Positions 14,150 to 31,681 of a DNA stretch of 31,681 nucleotides are shown here, piece by piece (position 1 is the first letter of the stretch; each line of letters starts with the position of its first letter). A program made the position numbers and the translations under genes. This DNA comes from Spirogloea muscicola. Lineage: Eukaryota > Streptophyta > Zygnematophyceae > Spirogloeales > Spirogloeaceae. The stretch spans positions 1 through 31,681 of the forward strand of contig WELB01000233.1 of NCBI GenBank assembly GCA_009602725.1, written 5' to 3'. The notes beneath the pieces are model-generated. The model saw nothing but the letters and a program-made list of their open reading frames with translations. It was not told the origin of the DNA and did no database searches.

Positions 14150-14690
14150 AAAGCAAGCGCGGCCAGATGGTGGCTGGGAGAGGCCAGCCCAAAGGAATGG
14201 ACAAGGTCTGAAGGAGCCGGAGTGCTAAGGACTGAGACAGCAGCAAGCGGACTCTCAGTAACCTCTAGTCTTTAGATGCAAATCTGAATAGCTAGCAGGC
14301 GGAAAGACGTCGCCCTGACGGTAGCCGGAGGCCGCCGCCAAAGCGCGGCCTGCGCGCAAGTGGACCGCAAAAGCTAGGGACCGCTGCAAAGAGATGGCCA
14401 AGCGCATCCGGAAGACTTGGGCGAGGGATCTGGCGACATTGAAGCCAGTCTGCTCGCCCTGCTGCCCGTGGCGGCGGGCCGCTGCTCGCCGCGCAAGGTG
14501 GTGAAGCAGGTAAAGCCATTTGGCGCCAAAGGCGCCGTGTACGTCGACGGCGAGTGGCACAAACCCTGTCGCCCACCGGGTGATCCGAGTATTTCCGATC
14601 CTTGGCGCCTGCCGCTGGGCGGACTGCGTAGCCCGCCTCCTCCGCCGAGCGTTTGGCGCTCCTCGAATCAAAAGAGTCAGTCGTGCAATT
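14150..14690 (-). mobile_element. Retrotransposon fragment: end of RLE, C-terminal module, B-type 3' UTR
   Basis: Minus strand: EEAGYAVRPAAGAKDRKY (the K-bearing end of the restriction-like endonuclease; compare KAGYAVACAARAKE at 18300-18250). After a frameshift come VPLAVDVHGAFGAKWLYLLH, FNVARSLAQVFRMRLAIS, RAGRALAAASGYRQGDVFPP and SYSDLHLKTRGY, with TGA at 14255-14257. The 3' UTR (to about 14150) has CTTGTCCATTCC and GGGCTGGCCTCTCCCAGCC and closely matches 6755-6866. This is one of the best preserved C-terminal modules in the window. Confidence 0.85.
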
Positions 14691-15311: not shown

Positions 15312-17577
15312 CTAGGCATGGTCAGCACGAAGATGCAAGGCTGATTCCTGGAAACGTTGCACCGCAAGCAAGAGGCGCATGCGACACTCCTGACCGACCT
15401 CCTCCAGCCACTTGATTGACGAGCAGTGACCTGGGCTGCAGCAGGGCCAGCAGGGTGAACAGCAGACTGCCAGGCTGCGGGCTCGCTGGGCCAGAAGATG
15501 ACCACAGCGTCTTCCACGACTCTCCGGCTTGCCAAAGCAGCCGCCCTGGGCGGCCATAGGCCATGAGGAAAAAGGGTATAAGCGAAGGGAAGTGGTTGCG
15601 CAGCTCCTCCATGATGACGCTGCGCTCCACCGTGTTGAAGGCGTTACTGATATCCAGTCCAAGGACCATCATTGAAGGGTCCACGTCGAGAGCAGCGCGG
15701 ATGCCGTGGACGAGGGCCTCCGCCCCGCAGGACATGCCAGCACCAAATTGGTGGGGTGATAGGTGGCTGGTCAGCTGGGGTTTCAGCTCGCTGCACACGG
15801 CCTTTGATACCAGCCGCATGATAACCTCCGTCATCGCAATGGGTCTCACCCCGCCTGTCGGCTTCGCAAGGGTCAGCAGGTGGCTGGAATTTAAGGCGTC
15901 GGCAATGCGTGGTGGAATGGCAGCCCTGGCGATGTGCCGGCAGGTGGACAGGAACAGGGAGAAGCTCCTCTCATCCCCATCAAGAAATAGGTCCTGTAGG
16001 TGCTCAAAGAGCCATCCAGAAGGGCCTCCAGACACCATCCGGGGGGCTTTGGTCAGGGCCACACGGAGCGCTTCTGCCGACAGGTCAAGAGGACTGGGGA
16101 GCTCGCCAGCCCAGGGCTCGAGGGGGTGTTGTGGAGGGGGGTGGAGCTGTCGCAAGATAGCCTCCGTGGCGTCGTTGGTAGTAGCCAGGGGGTCAGGGCA
16201 AAGGGCCTGAGCGGCCCGGGAAAGTTCTCCTGCCCTGCCAAAGCGTCTTGCGCGCGCTAGATTTCCAGCTGTGGACTGTTGAGAGGGCTGATTGATTGCT
16301 CCATTGCGCGCCCGCCGCTGTGAGAGCGCGACCCGAGCAGCTGCTGCCCGCTGCTGGGCCAACTCCTCCCATTTCCCACTTGCAAATGCAGCCAGTCTGT
16401 CCTGGAGAGTCTTGCGGCCACCGACGCCGAAGGAGGGAAGATGGCCAAGAACGAGCTTGGGAAAAAGCAATTACAACGCCCAGGCCGCCTCGTCCATAGA
16501 GTCCGCTTCGATGCGTGCGAGGTAAGGCGTAAGAACCTTGGTGCACTGACGACGTGCCCATCTGGGAACGTGGCGAAGGTTTCGAAGGCCGTCAGGGATG
16601 AGAAGGGGGGTGAGGTCCACTGTGGCAGCCCAATGCCAGCTCTCTGAAGAAGGGGGTGGTGGAGGCCGGACTGTGCCAGGCACTTGTGAACTCGCTGCCA
16701 GCTCCTCGCGATTCTGGCGGTTGCGACAGTGATAGGCATGGACTGGCAGCCCTCTCGTGTTGAAACGTTGCTGGCATACTGGGCAGGGGACTCTGTGGTC
16801 TGGCGCATTTGGGAGGCCCGTGTGGACTGGGCTTGGGTTGTGAGACTGACCCTGGCGATGGCGAGGTCGTTCTTGATGGTCATCAGCTGGATGGCGTCTC
16901 GCGATAACAGGTCGAGGCAGCAAGGGAGGTGGAGGTACGGGTAGAGGTAACAGGGGAGGTAGAGGAGGCAATGATGGTGGCGGCACTGGTGGTGGTGGTG
17001 GTGGTGGTAGTGGAGCAGGTGGTGGTGGTGGTGGTGGTGGTCGTGGCGGCTCCGGGGCGGGGACTGGTGCTGGCACTGGTAAATGCACAGCTGGAGCTTG
17101 AGAAAGAGATGAGCGTTGCCTTCGAGTCGAGAGTAGATGCAGCAGACTTCGCGGCCGGCAGGAAATAAAGGGCCCGTCCGCAGTAGAAGAGTCGCTTGAC
17201 TGTGCTGGGCTGATGACAATTCCGACTCGGGGGTCCATGTTGGGGGCCTCGGACTCTGCATCCGAGGAGGCCGAGCCGGGGTCCGCAAGCCGAGCTATCT
17301 CATCAGGAGCAGGGACTGCAGGGAGGGGCTCGGGCTCCACAGCCGTCGTCGGGGAGGAGCGTGAAGAAGCTGAAGGGGGCGTTGAAGGAGTGGGAAGGTC
17401 GGCCACTAAGGCAATGGCAGCCCTCATTGCAGCAGTCGAGCTGCGGGTGCCGTAAGGGCGAGGGGCGCGCCGCGACGGGCTGCGCGCCGCGCCGCGACCT
17501 TTGGCAGCCGCCGCCATGGCGGTGGGGTCGGCCAGCGGGCGGTGGGCGGTGGGCGGCGGCCAGAAGGGCTCGCCCAC
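15312..17577 (-). mobile_element. Non-LTR retrotransposon with zinc finger and RT domain; nonsense codon and internal deletion
   Basis: Minus strand, one frame from 17577. It has a 368-codon N-terminal part with a proline-rich linker (GGT microsatellite 16980-17045) and a C2H2/C2HC-like finger VPCPVCQQRF...HAYHC near 16790-16730. A TAA at 16471-16473 interrupts it. The RT part continues in the same frame (16470-15322): KPTGGVRPIAMTEVIMRLVS (fingers), HQFGAGMSCGAEALVHGIRA, and motif A LGLDISNAFN at about residue 273. Shortly after AYGRPGRLLWQAG homology stops. The catalytic motif C (YxDD-like), thumb, finger and RLE are missing, and a different frame gives CRMRLLLAVQRFQESALHLR (15385-15312), the C-terminal module. 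It is thus an internally deleted, inactive copy, and the only one here with an RT domain. Confidence 0.88.
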
Positions 17578-22524: not shown

Positions 22525-24359
22525 TTAGATCTCCTTCCGCTCGTTGCCGAGAATTGCGTACTTTTCCCCTGTAGATATTCAGCTGCGTCAGCTTGACATC
22601 CTCAGAACAGCATTAGTGCAACCGGAGCACCTCTGTACAAGACAAGCGACACAAAGGAGTGGAATACTTGCAGCAAACTGCTGCATTGCTGCATCTGCAT
22701 GCATTAATGAAACAGGCTGAGGCACCTGGGAAGATGTAGTCTTCAAAGCCTTTCTCTCCCGTGAAGGAGTCCGCGCCTGCATGGATTTGAACACCCGTGA
22801 TAACGGCATAGTCCACTGTGTCTGCTAAGCCAGCCTTGTGGATGTAAGATTCAAGCTCCTTTGCCGTCACCTAGTATACATTCAATTGTCACGCGATCAA
22901 TGCCAGAGATATCACAGTTTGCCAGTCATACTGCTGGCTGCTAAGGTCTCAGCTTAAGTGTGTCTGAAACAATTCAAAGCGAGGGCAAAAGGAGAGTTGT
23001 AAGGTCCAAAGGTGCAGATAAGTTAAGATAAGTGGCTGACCTCCATGGTCAACTTGGTAATATCTGCGAGGCTGAATTCTGAGGGCTTCTGAGGCAGGGA
23101 CTTGATGTGTGAGCCCTGCAGCATGTACTACCACGCTCTGGATTACAGCGCCATCTCTCTTGACACTATGATTGTATCAATACATACCTCCTGAGAGAGG
23201 TCCGCTTCTACAGTAGCCAAAGTCCAATGTGGCTGCTTATTAGAAGATTGGACCTGCACTCAGAGGTAACCTCATCATGCATTCTCTGAAGGCCTGCTTA
23301 AAAATCAGCTTCATGCACCAATCGCTGTGGCTACTTGTGTGCTTACCAATCTCTTCTTCAGGAAGCTCACTTCTAACTCGTCCGCATCGAGGTCCCCTTC
23401 TGGGATAAAACCCTGATTGTCCTCGATCACTTTGTGCATGGCAAGAAGAGCGCCACAGGCACTGCTTGCCTGGCTCCTTCCGATCCTGTGGATTTTCCCC
23501 TGCTGCCCTGCAGCATTAACAAGGAGATGCACCAGACTAAATGACGCTATGAGCTTACATGTGAGCCCTTGCAATTTCAGCTGCAATACAGCGACGCTGA
23601 CTGCTTACAGCCTCGCAGGCAGAGCTGGCATGCATCACGAAGACGGCTTACCTTCCTTGTCAATTCCAATGTGAGGGAAAGCAAAGAAAATATCTGCCAG
23701 TGCACAACCAGCTCCCGTCAGGGTCATGACAGTGTGACACAGGCTTTCATCATCATGATAATGATCTGTCATCGAAGACACGGACATCATGGACGGCAAC
23801 CATGCGGCGCAGCCCACAGTAGTGATGTGCAGTAAAAATCTGATGAGAGAGACGCAGCTGGCTGCCACTCATCGAGAAGCTTGACATTGAGAGGAGGCAG
23901 GCACAAAGCGAGCCGAATGGCATTGCCCTCACATTTCTCTGATCCGCTCTGGTTAGGCGCGTGGCTCATGCCAGCTTTGAGCCCCGTCGGGCCACAGGTG
24001 ACTAGGCCCGCAAGGGCGGACATGTCGAAGGACTCTCCGTAGATCTGGGAGCACGGCGAGCAGGCCGGGCAGTCTCAGCAACCAGCTGCCCTTCCAGCAC
24101 AGGAGCCGGCATCAATCAAGCAATGTCCCCGGCAGTGAACAGGATACAGAGAGAGGAGTGGAGGGGGGCAGGCCTCGTCAATCTTGCGGTAGAAGTGGTG
24201 CGTGATCTCGTCGCGGCACGTAGCGACGAGGGCAATGCTGTTGTCCTTGCTGAACCCCAGGTGGTCCAGGGAGCTGCGGACGGACTGGAGGAACTCGACG
24301 TCGCGCTGGCAGCCGGGGAAGAGCTGCTGCGCGGCGCGCAGCGCGGCGGCGGAGGCCAT
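22525..24359 (-). CDS. LCIB/LCIC-family protein (theta-type carbonic anhydrase fold), paralogue 1, 7 exons
   Basis: Member of the limiting-CO2-inducible B/C family of the algal CO2-concentrating mechanism. Family members have a beta-CA-like fold; some hydrate CO2, while Chlamydomonas LCIB/LCIC were reported inactive when purified. Exons: 24174-24359, 23933-24044, 23652-23693, 23347-23507, 23041-23115, 22726-22870, 22525-22568 (254 aa). Markers: FLQSVRSSLDHLGFSKDNSI, the CRDE motif at about residues 48-51 (probable zinc Cys and Asp), TGLKAGMSHAP, FFAFPHIGIDKEG, SSACGALLAMHK, DYAVITGVQIHAG, DYIFPGEKYAILGNERKEI. Intron 1 starts GC (24172-24173) where the paralogue has GT. An in-frame stop lies 26 codons upstream of the ATG and no long transit peptide is seen, so plastid targeting is uncertain unless an upstream exon exists. 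The paralogue is at 28937-30911. Confidence 0.93.
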
Positions 24360-24654
24360 GGCGGAGCGCAGCGGGGGGGGAGGAAGGAAGACTGCGGCAG
24401 CTGGTACTGAAGCAACGAAGCAATGCGGCTGGTGGTATCAGAGGAGCGGCTGTAGAAGCCCGGCCGGGTGCACACGGAGTGTGGTCGGAAGTGTGGTAGC
24501 GGGGGAGGGGGGTTGCGGGGCGCGGGGTTGCGTGGCAGCCGTGCTGTCGCATCTTACCCGCCACGCGGGCGCCCCGTCACCGGCCCCTCATCCCCTGCCG
24601 GTTATGGCCGGCGACTTCGTCCCCTCGTGTCCCCACCTTGTCCCCTCGAAACAG

Positions 24655-24860
24655 AGAGAAGGGCTCGCCCATTGAGGATAGGGGCTGGAAAAAGCCAGCC
24701 CAGAAAAGAATGAACGAAGGACGAGAAGGGGCCAGGGGAAGTACGAAGAACAACAAGCACAGAAAAGAAACGAAGCAGCTACGAAGCACTCAGTAACCCC
24801 TGCTAAGCAGCCTCAGGTCAGAGAGACTGGGTTCCTGGAAGCGGGTCCCCTGGCTCCGAA
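24655..24860 (-). mobile_element. Retrotransposon 3' end with C-type hairpin 3' UTR, upstream of LCIB-like gene 1
   Basis: Minus strand: FQEPSLSDLRLLSRGY with the stop at 24790-24792. The 3' UTR follows: CTTCCCCTGGCCCCTTCTCG, CATTCTTTTCTGGGCTGGC, TTTTTCCAGCCCC and ATGGGCGAGCCCTTCTC, ending near 24655. The coding tail and UTR match 17820-17970. It lies about 300 bp upstream of the LCIB-like start, pointing toward the gene. Confidence 0.8.
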
Positions 24861-28936: not shown

Positions 28937-30911
28937 TCAGATCTCTGTCCGCTTGTTGTCGACCACTACATACATTTTCCCTGTCGAGACATAGCTGCGT
29001 CAGCCTGGGGTTCTTAAAAACACAGGAGAGAAAGAGCACCTCTGGGCTTTGAGCAATCTGCATGTTCTAGTGGCTCATTGATTTAGCAGTGCCGAAATAG
29101 GCCGAAGCACCTGGAAAGATGTAGTCTCCAAAGCCCTTCTCTCCGTCAAAGGAGTCGGCGCCTGCATGAATCTGGACACCTGTGATAACAGCATAGTCTG
29201 CTCCGTTTGCTAGTGGAGCCCTCTCAATGCAAGACTCGAGCTCCTTCAGCGTCACCTATGATAGGTACGATTGTCACCTTGATCACTTCCAGAGGCATCA
29301 CATCTTGCCAGTCGAAGTATTGCTTCTAAAATTTCAACTATCAACCTGCAACTTCAATCTCAATTCATCTCACGTACATCTCTCAAGAGCGTGGGCACAA
29401 CGAAAGTGGGGAAGGTCCAATATTGCAACTCAGTAGCAAACCTCCATAGTCAACTTGGTAAGATCAGCGAGGCTGGAGGGTGTCTGTGACGAGGACTCCA
29501 TGTGTGCACCCTGCAGCGAATAACATCAGGCGCTTGCTTGACGAGGCGAATTGAAATCAACACATGCCCGCGTCAAGAGTCGCCAGAGCCCAAAGCCCGC
29601 ACTCAGAGCTTGCCCCGAGAGTCACATACTAGAGGCCTCTACCCCACCAGCATTGTGCACACAGGACGGCTTGTCATTTCTTACCAACCGCTGCTTAAGG
29701 AAGCTGAACTCCAACTCGTCTGGATCCAGGACCGCTCCAGAGAGTGAACCCTTGTCCTGTATTAGTTTGTGCACTGCAGCTAGAGCGCCACAGGCGTGGC
29801 TCGCCTTGGTTCTTCCAATCCTGTCAATACTCCCGATAGCTTCAGGATCCCCTGCAGCATTGAGAAGGAGACGCGCCAGACTACATGACACTGTGAAGTC
29901 ACCTGTGAGACGAGTGACCATTACCAATCAAAGCAGCTGCGATGCAGCGACGCTGGCTGACTACAGTCAGGCAAGGAAAGTTGGATTGCATCACGAAGAA
30001 TCGCAGAGAGCAGCTTACCTGTCTTGTCGATCCCAATGTGAGGGAAAGCAAAGAAGATATCTGCAAGTGCACAGCACCTTGAGGTGAATTACTCAGCCCC
30101 AGAGTCATGACAGTGGCCACAATGGACAAAGTCATCTTTATCAACATTATCGATGAACACAGATGTTCAGAAGCGGAATACTGGAGACAGAACTATGTGG
30201 CACTGCGGTGAAGTGCAATGAATCTTTCAGGAGAGTGCTGCCGAGAGTCAGCTGGTTGCCAGTCATTGGGGAGCTTGGGGAGCGGAAAGGGGTTGCTCGC
30301 ACATTTCTCTGCTCCGCCTTTGTCAGGCGCATGGCTCATGCCAGCTTTGAGCCCAATAGGGCCGCACGTAACGAGGCCCGCAAGCGCGGACATGTCAAAC
30401 GACTCCCCATATATCTAGGAGCATGGTGAGCAGGCAGGGCAATCTCAGCAACAGCTACCCTTCCAGCTCGATAGATGTCAGCATTGCTAAGGTGAAGCCC
30501 CCTGCATAAGCTGAGATACAGGGAGCCAAGAGACGCAACAGGCTTGCACAAAGATGAACAGGAGGCAGGCAATCGTGCGCAGCAGCTCGTCGGCGGGATG
30601 TGGGAGTAAATGGTGGCAGACCTCGTCGATTTTCCGGTAGAAGTGGTGGGTGATCTCGTCGCGGCAGGTGGCGATCAGGGCAATGCTGTTGTCCCTGCGA
30701 CGAGGCCAGGGCGTGGAGCGTCAGGCGCAGCGAGGGGCGAGCAGGGGCCAGGGAGGGGCGGGCGGCCCGCGAAGGGAGGAGGTAGCACAAGGGCGGACTT
30801 GCTGAACCCGTGGTCTTCGAGGCGGCTGCGGACATAGTCGAGGAAGTCGGCGTCGGGCTTGCAGTCCGGGAATGCCTCCTGCGCACGCAGCTGCGCTGCG
30901 GCGGAGGCCAT
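28937..30911 (-). CDS. LCIB/LCIC-family protein (theta-type carbonic anhydrase fold), paralogue 2, 8 exons
   Basis: Second copy of the LCIB-like gene, same strand as paralogue 1 and about 4.6 kb upstream of it in transcription order. Exons: 30799-30911, 30622-30694, 30303-30414, 30019-30060, 29685-29851, 29442-29510, 29111-29255, 28937-28980 (also 254 aa). Introns lie at the same places and phases as in paralogue 1, plus one extra intron (30695-30798). Identical blocks include CRDEITHHFYRKIDEIYGES, FDMSALAGLVTCGP, FFAFPHIGIDK and DYAVITGVQIHAGADSF. Differences include DRIGRTKASHACGALAAVHK and the end PGKMYVVVDNKRTEI, which is closer to other LCIB proteins than paralogue 1. Likely zinc ligands (Cys of CRDE, Cys of ACGAL) are kept. 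All introns GT-AG. No long transit peptide. The gene looks intact. Confidence 0.93.
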
Positions 30912-30984
30912 GCCGGGCGCGGCGCCGGGCGCTGGCCAAGGGGGACAGGGAGTCGGAGCTGCAAGCAGAGAGGCGAGGGCGAAG

Positions 30985-31160
30985 GGGAGAAGGGCTCGCC
31001 CACTGACGATAGGGGCTGGGAAAAGCCAGCCCCAAAAGAGTAGAGCGCGGCCAGATTGACTGGCGGCTGGGAGAGGCCAGCCCAGAGGAATGGACAAGGT
31101 CTGACAAGCCAGCCCCAAAAGGCATGTACGAAGGACGAGGAGGGGCCAGGGGAAGCACCA
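30985..31160 (-). mobile_element. C-type retrotransposon 3' UTR upstream of LCIB-like gene 2, split by an insertion
   Basis: Minus strand: CTTCCCCTGGCCCCTCCTCG, CTTCGTACATGCC, then TTTTGGGGCTGGCTT. A 67-nt insert follows, then TTTTGGGGCTGGCTT again, TTCCCAGCCCC and GTGGGCGAGCCCTTCTC near 30985. Without the insert it matches the C-type UTR at 24655-24789. It ends about 75 bp upstream of the LCIB-like start and points toward the gene. Confidence 0.78.
31023..31121 (-). mobile_element. 67-nt hairpin micro-insertion with perfect 16-bp target-site duplication
   Basis: AAGCCAGCCCCAAAAG occurs at 31023-31038 and 31106-31121. Between them, 31039-31105 read on minus is CAGACCTTGTCCATTCC, GGGCTGGCCTCTCCCAGCC and CAGTCAATCTGGCCGCGCTC. 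This is the end of the B-type 3' UTR (compare 6790-6862) and nothing else. The host sequence is a C-type UTR, so the two UTR families are distinct elements nested one in another. Confidence 0.85.
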
Positions 31161-31184
31161 GAAGAAAGGGGAGGAGCTCGCGCT

Positions 31185-31240: not shown

Positions 31241-31681
31241 AGCTTGAGGAGGCTGCCAGAGATTCACAACAATCCAAGGAGCCTGGCAAGACTTACTTCC
31301 CTCGCCACACCTGGAGCCACAGCCTGGATCACCTCACACGCCGTGGCCAGCGCCTTCAGCATCAGCTCCGAGGCCTTTCGGACGTTGCTTCAACTCTTCC
31401 TCGGCCTCCCACCTGACTGCCTGATTGGGGTGCGCCAGTGTGAGTGCGGCTTCCGTGCAGAGAGTGCTGAGCTCGCCGCTCACATGCTGCGATGCCCCAC
31501 TGGACCAGAAGTGGTGGGCATCCAAAACCTCCTCCGTGATGCTCTGGCGGGTTTGATGCGCGACGCGGGGTACCGTGCGGTCGTGGAAGTGAACAACATC
31601 ATGCCTATCACCACGGATGCCCAGGGACGTCATCATCGCCGCACGCTTGACATTGTGGGCGTGCAACCTGGTGGAGGACCA
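31230..31681 (+). mobile_element. Retrotransposon fragment: CCHC-like finger and start of RLE endonuclease, open to window end
   Basis: One uninterrupted plus-strand frame: SLRRLPEIHNNPRSLARLTS, LATPGATAWITSHAVASAF, SEAFRTLLQLFLGLPPDC, the finger QCECGFRAESAELAAHMLRC, then LLRDALAGLMRDAGYRAVVE and RRTLDIVGVQPGGGP, running out of the window. The finger plus acidic RTLDIV pair matches the finger/RLE order of R2-type elements. It is the best preserved finger region here and shares its sequence with the decayed copy at 2245-3110. The RT domain is not present upstream; the frame begins abruptly after a hairpin-module remnant. Confidence 0.82.

Follow-up and report, generated by a model that had tools for sequence, protein, structure and literature searches.

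The DNA analysed here, referred to as the window, is a stretch of 31,681 nucleotides from Spirogloea muscicola (contig WELB01000233.1). Towards its end lies the start of a probable carbonic anhydrase gene and, upstream of it, the 3' tail of one LINE family (C) interrupted by the 3' end of another (B). The features on which the analysis is based are the following, identities to LINE protein being given for the open frame of the element L069, described below:

14156-14260, minus strand: another B tail of the window, immediately preceded on this strand by matching LINE coding sequence (14258-14687)
15490-16785, minus strand: reverse-transcriptase part of a LINE of the same kind, 43% identical to residues 120-557 of the L069 frame
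24656-24795, minus strand: uninterrupted C-family tail, used as the empty-site comparison, 98.6% identical to the C reference copy
30681-30911, minus strand: start of the probable LCIB-type carbonic anhydrase gene, start codon at 30909-30911
30987-31039, minus strand: host C-family tail, 3' part, C positions 87-140, 91% identity
31012-31033, minus strand: host hairpin with an 8-bp stem, GGGGCUGG/CCAGCCCC (z -2.98, fold of 30980-31037)
31023-31038, minus strand: target-site duplication, downstream copy, holding the left arm of the host hairpin
31039-31105, minus strand: 67-nt insert, a B-family LINE 3' end
31065-31082, minus strand: hairpin within the insert, GGCUGG/CCAGCC (z -1.87, fold of 31034-31105)
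31106-31121, minus strand: target-site duplication, upstream copy, CTTTTGGGGCTGGCTT
31106-31166, minus strand: host C-family tail, 5' part, C positions 46-104, 84% identity
31202-31681, plus strand: fragment of a further LINE of the same kind, corresponding to residues 850-1007 in the L069 frame

The carbonic anhydrase gene belongs to a tandem pair with LCIB_C_CA pieces (limiting-CO2-inducible B/C carbonic anhydrase), located at 23314-24359 and 29625-30911 on the minus strand. When six pieces of both genes were scanned against Pfam, five matched LCIB_C_CA, four of them above the cut-off: three in the copy at 23.3-24.4 kb (2.1e-6, 1.7e-9 and 1.6e-9) and one in the copy nearer to the insertion (30199-30414, 4.7e-8), which also holds the match below the cut-off (0.051). 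No Pfam match was obtained for the piece with the nearer start codon, 30681-30911. The first-pass annotation had placed the insertion within 200 bp of a gene start, and a fitting minus-strand start codon is indeed found at 30911, with the nearer repeat of the insertion 112 bp upstream of it. The LINE fragment was also considered as the neighbouring gene start, at 31244, and discarded for the LCIB-type start on the other strand.

The 30.9-kb copy of the gene contains a 104-bp GT...AG stretch (30695-30798), probably an intron, and the other copy has none at the exact spot. An origin of this intron from a C tail (17 of 19 bases matching, a value reached in 4 of 500 shuffles) is not claimed. Both tandem genes carry a C-family tail upstream of the start codon, at a distance of 297 bp (24656-24795) and 76 bp (30987-31166), respectively. 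These two tails are probably independent insertions, since their divergence from the reference differs (98.6% as against 84-91% identity).

The insert and its target-site duplication

The sequence AAGCCAGCCCCAAAAG is present twice, in identical form, at 31023-31038 and 31106-31121, and the two copies are spaced by 67 nt (31039-31105). Within this spacing, and in the same orientation as the surrounding C tail, 31044-31104 corresponds to positions 50-110 of the B tail with 96.7% identity (the reference being the 110-nt B tail of locus L014), flanked by the extra bases CTACT at the 3' end (31039-31043) and by a single G at the 5' end (31105). When the insert and one copy of the repeat are removed, the host aligns without gaps at the junction to the C tail of L041. 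In the 3' part of the host, the match to C extends one base beyond the end of the duplication at 31038, to 31039. Identical repeats, a gap-free host and uninterrupted copies elsewhere thus make the 67-nt insertion with its perfect 16-bp duplication, as reported in the first-pass annotation, exact to the base. The same annotation recognised the insert as the end of a B-type 3' UTR inside a C-type one, in agreement with the match of the insert to B and of its flanks to C, and it took the duplicated target to be an arm of the host hairpin, which 31023-31038 is, covering the left arm of the hairpin at 31012-31033.

A repeat of this length bracketing the insert is not attributable to chance, since among 174 truncated tail copies ten repeats of at least 10 bp were observed, as against a mean of 0.48 with randomly paired flanks. 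The 16-bp duplication is moreover the longest among the truncated copies with flanking repeats. Identity to the respective reference copy is 96.7% for the insert (B) and 84% and 91% for the two parts of the host (C), which makes the host the older of the two.

A fixed structure, with the same arrangement in every C tail, had been named as the outcome that would speak against an insertion; it is ruled out by the uninterrupted tail at 24656-24795 and by those located in the collected loci with a regular expression. The latter gave 30 C tails, 26 of them 140 nt long; because the expression catches only tails intact at the insertion site, and because overlapping loci were kept, this figure indicates that uninterrupted C tails exist and is no measure of the interrupted share.

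As regards secondary structure, the hairpin at 31065-31082 of the insert is followed by a second small stem at 31050-31064. Six single folds of tails gave z values from -0.72 to -4.08. Single folds also place the tail hairpin within an outer stem in C (window 24650-24740, minus strand, z -3.00) and in A1 (L040:2125-2192, z -4.08). The left arm of the hairpin shows hardly any variation between tail families, so that a covariation test would say little.

As a LINE copy, the insert is severely truncated at its 5' end; it was produced by target-primed reverse transcription and is flanked by a 16-bp target-site duplication. The event is ordinary in kind and cleanly marked, and it illustrates well how a very short LINE copy can be accompanied by a complete target-site duplication.

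The source LINEs and their short copies

In copies of B and C from elsewhere in the genome, the 3' end is constant (B ...GGCCGCGCT and C ...GGGCGAGCCCTTCTC, in the minus-strand reading of the window) and the 5' end variable. In the longer copies, a shared protein C-terminus (often ...SDLxLLxRGY, then a stop) immediately precedes the tail. The B and C tails are the 3' UTRs of related LINE retrotransposons. An exact 18-mer of the B 3' end, AGTCAATCTGGCCGCGCT, occurs 1906 times in the genome (936 forward and 970 reverse), with no occurrence of the reversed control pattern. Across the collected loci, five tail types (A1, A2, B1, B2 and C) were marked with one reference copy each, A2 being based on the single copy found by its expression. 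The families were set by regular expressions and single reference copies because single-linkage clustering fused nearly all tails into one group.

The best view of the coding part is given by L069, whose open frame of 1154 codons ends at a C tail. The beginning of this frame, which runs through an A1 tail lying upstream and is without a methionine before residue 249, need not mark the true start of the protein. The frame matches Pfam RVT_1 (PF00078, E 6.7e-13). A profile built from L069 and 14 relatives (15 sequences) matches R2 (9nl3) with an E value of 8e-37, from profile position 264 to 976 of 1022 and chain position 411 to 1141, that is, from the reverse transcriptase into the C-terminal region. 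In a fold search with the predicted model of L069 (mean pLDDT 78.7), ranks 1 to 7 were R2 proteins (TMq 0.43-0.50), followed by LINE-1 ORF2p and then by spliceosome entries, the rmsd being large over the whole chain. The profile also contains conserved columns of the form C-x-C...H...C and R-x-D...D-x-T...K, which we take to be a zinc knuckle and a restriction-like endonuclease, respectively, with catalysis as a prediction. A further motif, CKHC...H...C at residues 118-140, aligns to an R2 finger with a negative score, in a part of the model where confidence is moderate to low. Database proteins labelled SM000... are 43-91% identical to the query over 10-53% of its length (five of the 37 proteins listed), the SM prefix pointing to Spirogloea muscicola.

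The element is identified as a non-LTR retrotransposon (LINE) by three features: it has a reverse transcriptase ahead of a 3' end that is constant, its copies are truncated to varying degrees at the 5' end, and they have target-site duplications. By profile and predicted fold rather than by a tree, it is read as an R2-like LINE with a putative restriction-like endonuclease. The specific insertion into 28S ribosomal genes that marks the R2 clade proper is not seen, the copies being dispersed in other LINE tails and in assorted DNA. Insertion into telomere-like repeats, as in telomere-targeted LINEs of the CNL1/MoTeR type, is not seen either, the duplications of at least 7 bp in 28 copies being varied and mostly pyrimidine-led, with none recognisable by eye as a telomere repeat. 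In the open-access literature naming Spirogloea, no paper was recognised as describing its LINEs. Rfam returned a single match in the window, far below the gathering score, at 2087-2200 and distant from the 67-nt insert. A LINE-rich stretch of the window also includes 20 imperfect TGG units in a row (16987-17046).

The short copies were counted in loci fetched by similarity to B or C, eight of them through a query that already held B inside C. Tails cover 10.9% of the flanks of these loci, as against 4.0% of the window. Once repeated junctions had been removed, along with those containing N or lying at the end of a locus, 289 copies with a complete 3' end remained, 111 with the whole tail and 178 starting inside it. 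The number of truncated copies free of doubt is 133, since each of the other 45 is immediately preceded by the 3' end of a tail of like orientation and could be the 3' half of an interrupted host instead of a short insertion. For 174 truncated copies the flanks were long enough for a comparison, and repeats of at least 7 bp border 28 of these, compared with 5.1 for shuffled flanks; the inserts in these 28 measure 30-130 nt, the upper limit being set by the tail lengths, and the repeats are mostly pyrimidine-led. As the remaining 146 of the 174 have no repeat of at least 7 bp, the window insertion is cleaner than most. Very short LINE copies are common in the sampled loci.

The B piece could also be conceived as a discrete, short, non-autonomous element similar to a SINE, with a fixed 5' end at TCAGACC. 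Certain starts do recur, position 50 of B1 four times (the window insert included) and position 56 of B2 three times. The starts of the 178 truncated copies are, however, spread over the tails, with none dominant, and the 30-130 nt range of the 28 inserts with duplications also argues against such a unit. This explanation is extremely improbable, and it was rejected on the spread of the starts.

Many short copies in four tail families constitute a natural data set on target choice by R2-type elements outside ribosomal genes, which bears also on the frequency of template switching and on why copying stops after a few dozen nucleotides. In addition, hairpin scraps of 30-130 nt scattered near genes may be mistaken for functional UTR structures.

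Nesting of tails in tails

The first-pass annotation had proposed to count how often inserts land in other such modules relative to their share of the genome. Another tail was found within 25 nt downstream in 80 of the 289 copies, 68 in sense and 12 in antisense orientation. Since B or C similarity had been used to fetch the loci, and since these contain many tails, the control consisted of random points within their flanks, and only copies fetched by their own sequence were considered (58 central B and C hits excluding that of the window, one of which was dropped for N, leaving 57). Of the 57, 14 had another same-sense tail directly downstream, compared with 6.3% of random points (p 9e-6), while antisense nesting (4 of 57, compared with 6.1%) was at chance level. 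By family, the excess is clear for C (10 of 28, p 5e-6); the C query included 16 nt of flank past the tail end, so that certain surroundings may have been favoured. For B, to which the 67-nt insert belongs, the excess lacks significance (4 of 29, p 0.11). Sense nesting is thus enriched about fourfold in the sample and firm for C only; the excess stands for the sense orientation and for C, and does not extend to antisense nesting or, at significance, to B. At one locus (L007, minus strand, 1797-2022), four B tails stand in a head-to-tail row with a common orientation, and three of these copies begin 1-11 nt ahead of the hairpin.

The same annotation had also seen in the hairpin arm a hint of preference for the hairpin or for hairpin-bearing templates. 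Recognition of the hairpin itself as the target, whether as an extruded DNA structure or through an RNA template that carries it, is in fact compatible with the window, where the two cut positions assumed below bracket the left arm. The 68 sense entries are distributed over the hairpin base (11), the loop (12), the left arm (1), the part upstream (41) and the part after the hairpin (3). Base and loop together (23 of 68) exceed both a uniform expectation of 9.8 (p 5e-5) and one of 15.8 weighted by nearby CTT or TTT (p 0.03), the weighting being hand-set and the limits of base and loop drawn after the entries had been seen. Nevertheless, a hairpin looks alike from both strands, and antisense nesting is at chance; most of the sense junctions (41 of 68) enter upstream of the hairpin; and its base and loop are themselves rich in T. 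We consider hairpin recognition unlikely.

The pyrimidine sites offer a simpler account. Of the sense positions of the tails, 46% have a CTT or TTT close by, compared with 1.3% of the antisense positions; among the observed entries the share is 68%. Since these sites are found almost only on the sense strand of the tails, the orientation bias can be accounted for. The window fits this account, as its duplication has CTTTT at its beginning and spans the left hairpin arm. The proposed preference for hairpins as such is weakened by this comparison, being mostly explained by CTT/TTT sites, with the weak post hoc residual given above. The LINEs would therefore appear to enter each other's tails through CTT/TTT sites on the right strand, and not through hairpins.

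Nested insertion predicts the 5' half of the host directly upstream of the inserting copy. Of 46 sense junctions at which the inserting copy starts inside its tail, eight, including that of the window, have it. After setting aside three at a locus edge and 11 in which the inserting copy is in turn preceded by a tail (which makes the test hardly informative), 32 junctions could be judged directly, with the host 5' half upstream in eight, absent in 20, and entry near the host 5' end in four. With only eight of the 32 carrying this half, simple nesting leaves most tail-to-tail junctions unexplained.

The absence of the host 5' half at those 20 junctions favours template switching, in which a LINE reverse transcriptase passes from one RNA tail to the 3' end of a second RNA and continues there, so that several tails enter as a chain in one event. 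This rival bears on many junctions and not on the window case, and we hold it to be very unlikely. In two of 19 closed chains, a duplication of at least 7 bp surrounds the whole chain and none surrounds the first member, compared with 0.48 expected: at L023, CCTTTCAACTC repeats flank two B tails, and at L055 (1989-2132), CTAACCCGGG repeats flank A2, 19 nt of which 17 are identical to the inside of A1, and A2 again. The three joined pieces at L055 look like one insertion from several templates. The R2 reverse transcriptase has moreover been reported to jump templates in vitro, which supports switching (PMC8857657). On the other hand, 13 of the 19 chains have neither duplication and four have one of at least 7 bp around the first member alone (1.1 expected), and a later insertion exactly at the 5' junction of an older copy would mimic template switching. 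Template switching may join some tails; the two chains hint at it and do not prove it. In the window, the presence of both host halves and of the insert's own 16-bp duplication makes the insertion a separate, later event.

Insertion model and comparison with known systems

Very probably, a B-family R2-like LINE used target-primed reverse transcription to insert a copy of no more than the final 60-odd nucleotides of its RNA into a C-family tail that was already in place. The nick in the priming strand would have been made, in minus-strand terms, at the foot of the host hairpin, directly before CTTTTGGGGCTGG, and the pyrimidine-rich 3' end of the RNA would have been primed by a short pairing with the purine-rich end of the primer. 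Copying would then have halted after about 62 nt, and a cut of the second strand 16 nt further on, in the hairpin loop, would have generated the 16-bp duplication. For such priming, the nicked strand would have to end in a purine run able to pair with the pyrimidine-rich RNA end, and the tails would offer sites of this kind one way only.

A wider scheme, which we regard as rather doubtful, is a self-landing system, in which each new tail would bring pyrimidine sites (hairpin foot, loop and its own 3' end) that serve as preferred, strand-specific targets or switch points. Nested insertion and template switching would then give same-sense daisy chains and would spread hairpin modules of 30-130 nt, some of them upstream of genes.

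R2-type LINEs are well known, as is 5' truncation. The LINEs described here resemble R2 and the R2 group in their reverse transcriptase and C-terminal region, which align by profile and predicted fold, in their 5' truncation and in their structured 3' end. Unlike R2, which is confined to 28S rDNA, they are dispersed (1906 exact copies of the 18-nt B 3' end), have duplications of variable length, and many of their copies start within the last 110-147 nt.

Many non-specific LINEs with a restriction-like endonuclease have been assigned to the HERO clade (PMC4640811). These and other non-specific LINEs are similar to the present elements in that endonuclease type and in having no single fixed target, a likeness drawn from their description and not from sequence (PMC4640811).

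LINEs with 3' stem-loops and "stringent" recognition, among them a plant L1 lineage, have also been described (PMC3747384). They share with the present families a short conserved 3' stem-loop at the end, although those of plants belong to the L1 clade, whereas here the elements are R2-like and the stem-loop is known from predicted folds (PMC3747384). As for the joined tails of L055 and L023, chimeric LINE-1 insertions likewise consist of joined pieces, mostly in sense, within outer duplications; there, LINE-1 is joined with other RNAs, whereas the partners joined here are both LINE tails from a single superfamily (PMC13174262).

Finally, the nearest precedent found for self-nesting, though with telomere-like targets, is CNL1 of Cryptococcus neoformans, a member of the R2 superfamily which, according to prior studies cited in that paper, prefers to insert into its own copies (PMC12810828). 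Its self-insertion, truncated copies and target-site duplications of 0-13 bp parallel those of the Spirogloea elements (PMC12810828). However, CNL1 forms arrays near telomeres with telomere-like duplications, and its smallest insertion reported there measured 180 bp, whereas the tails considered here are dispersed and their duplications have varied pyrimidine starts (PMC12810828).
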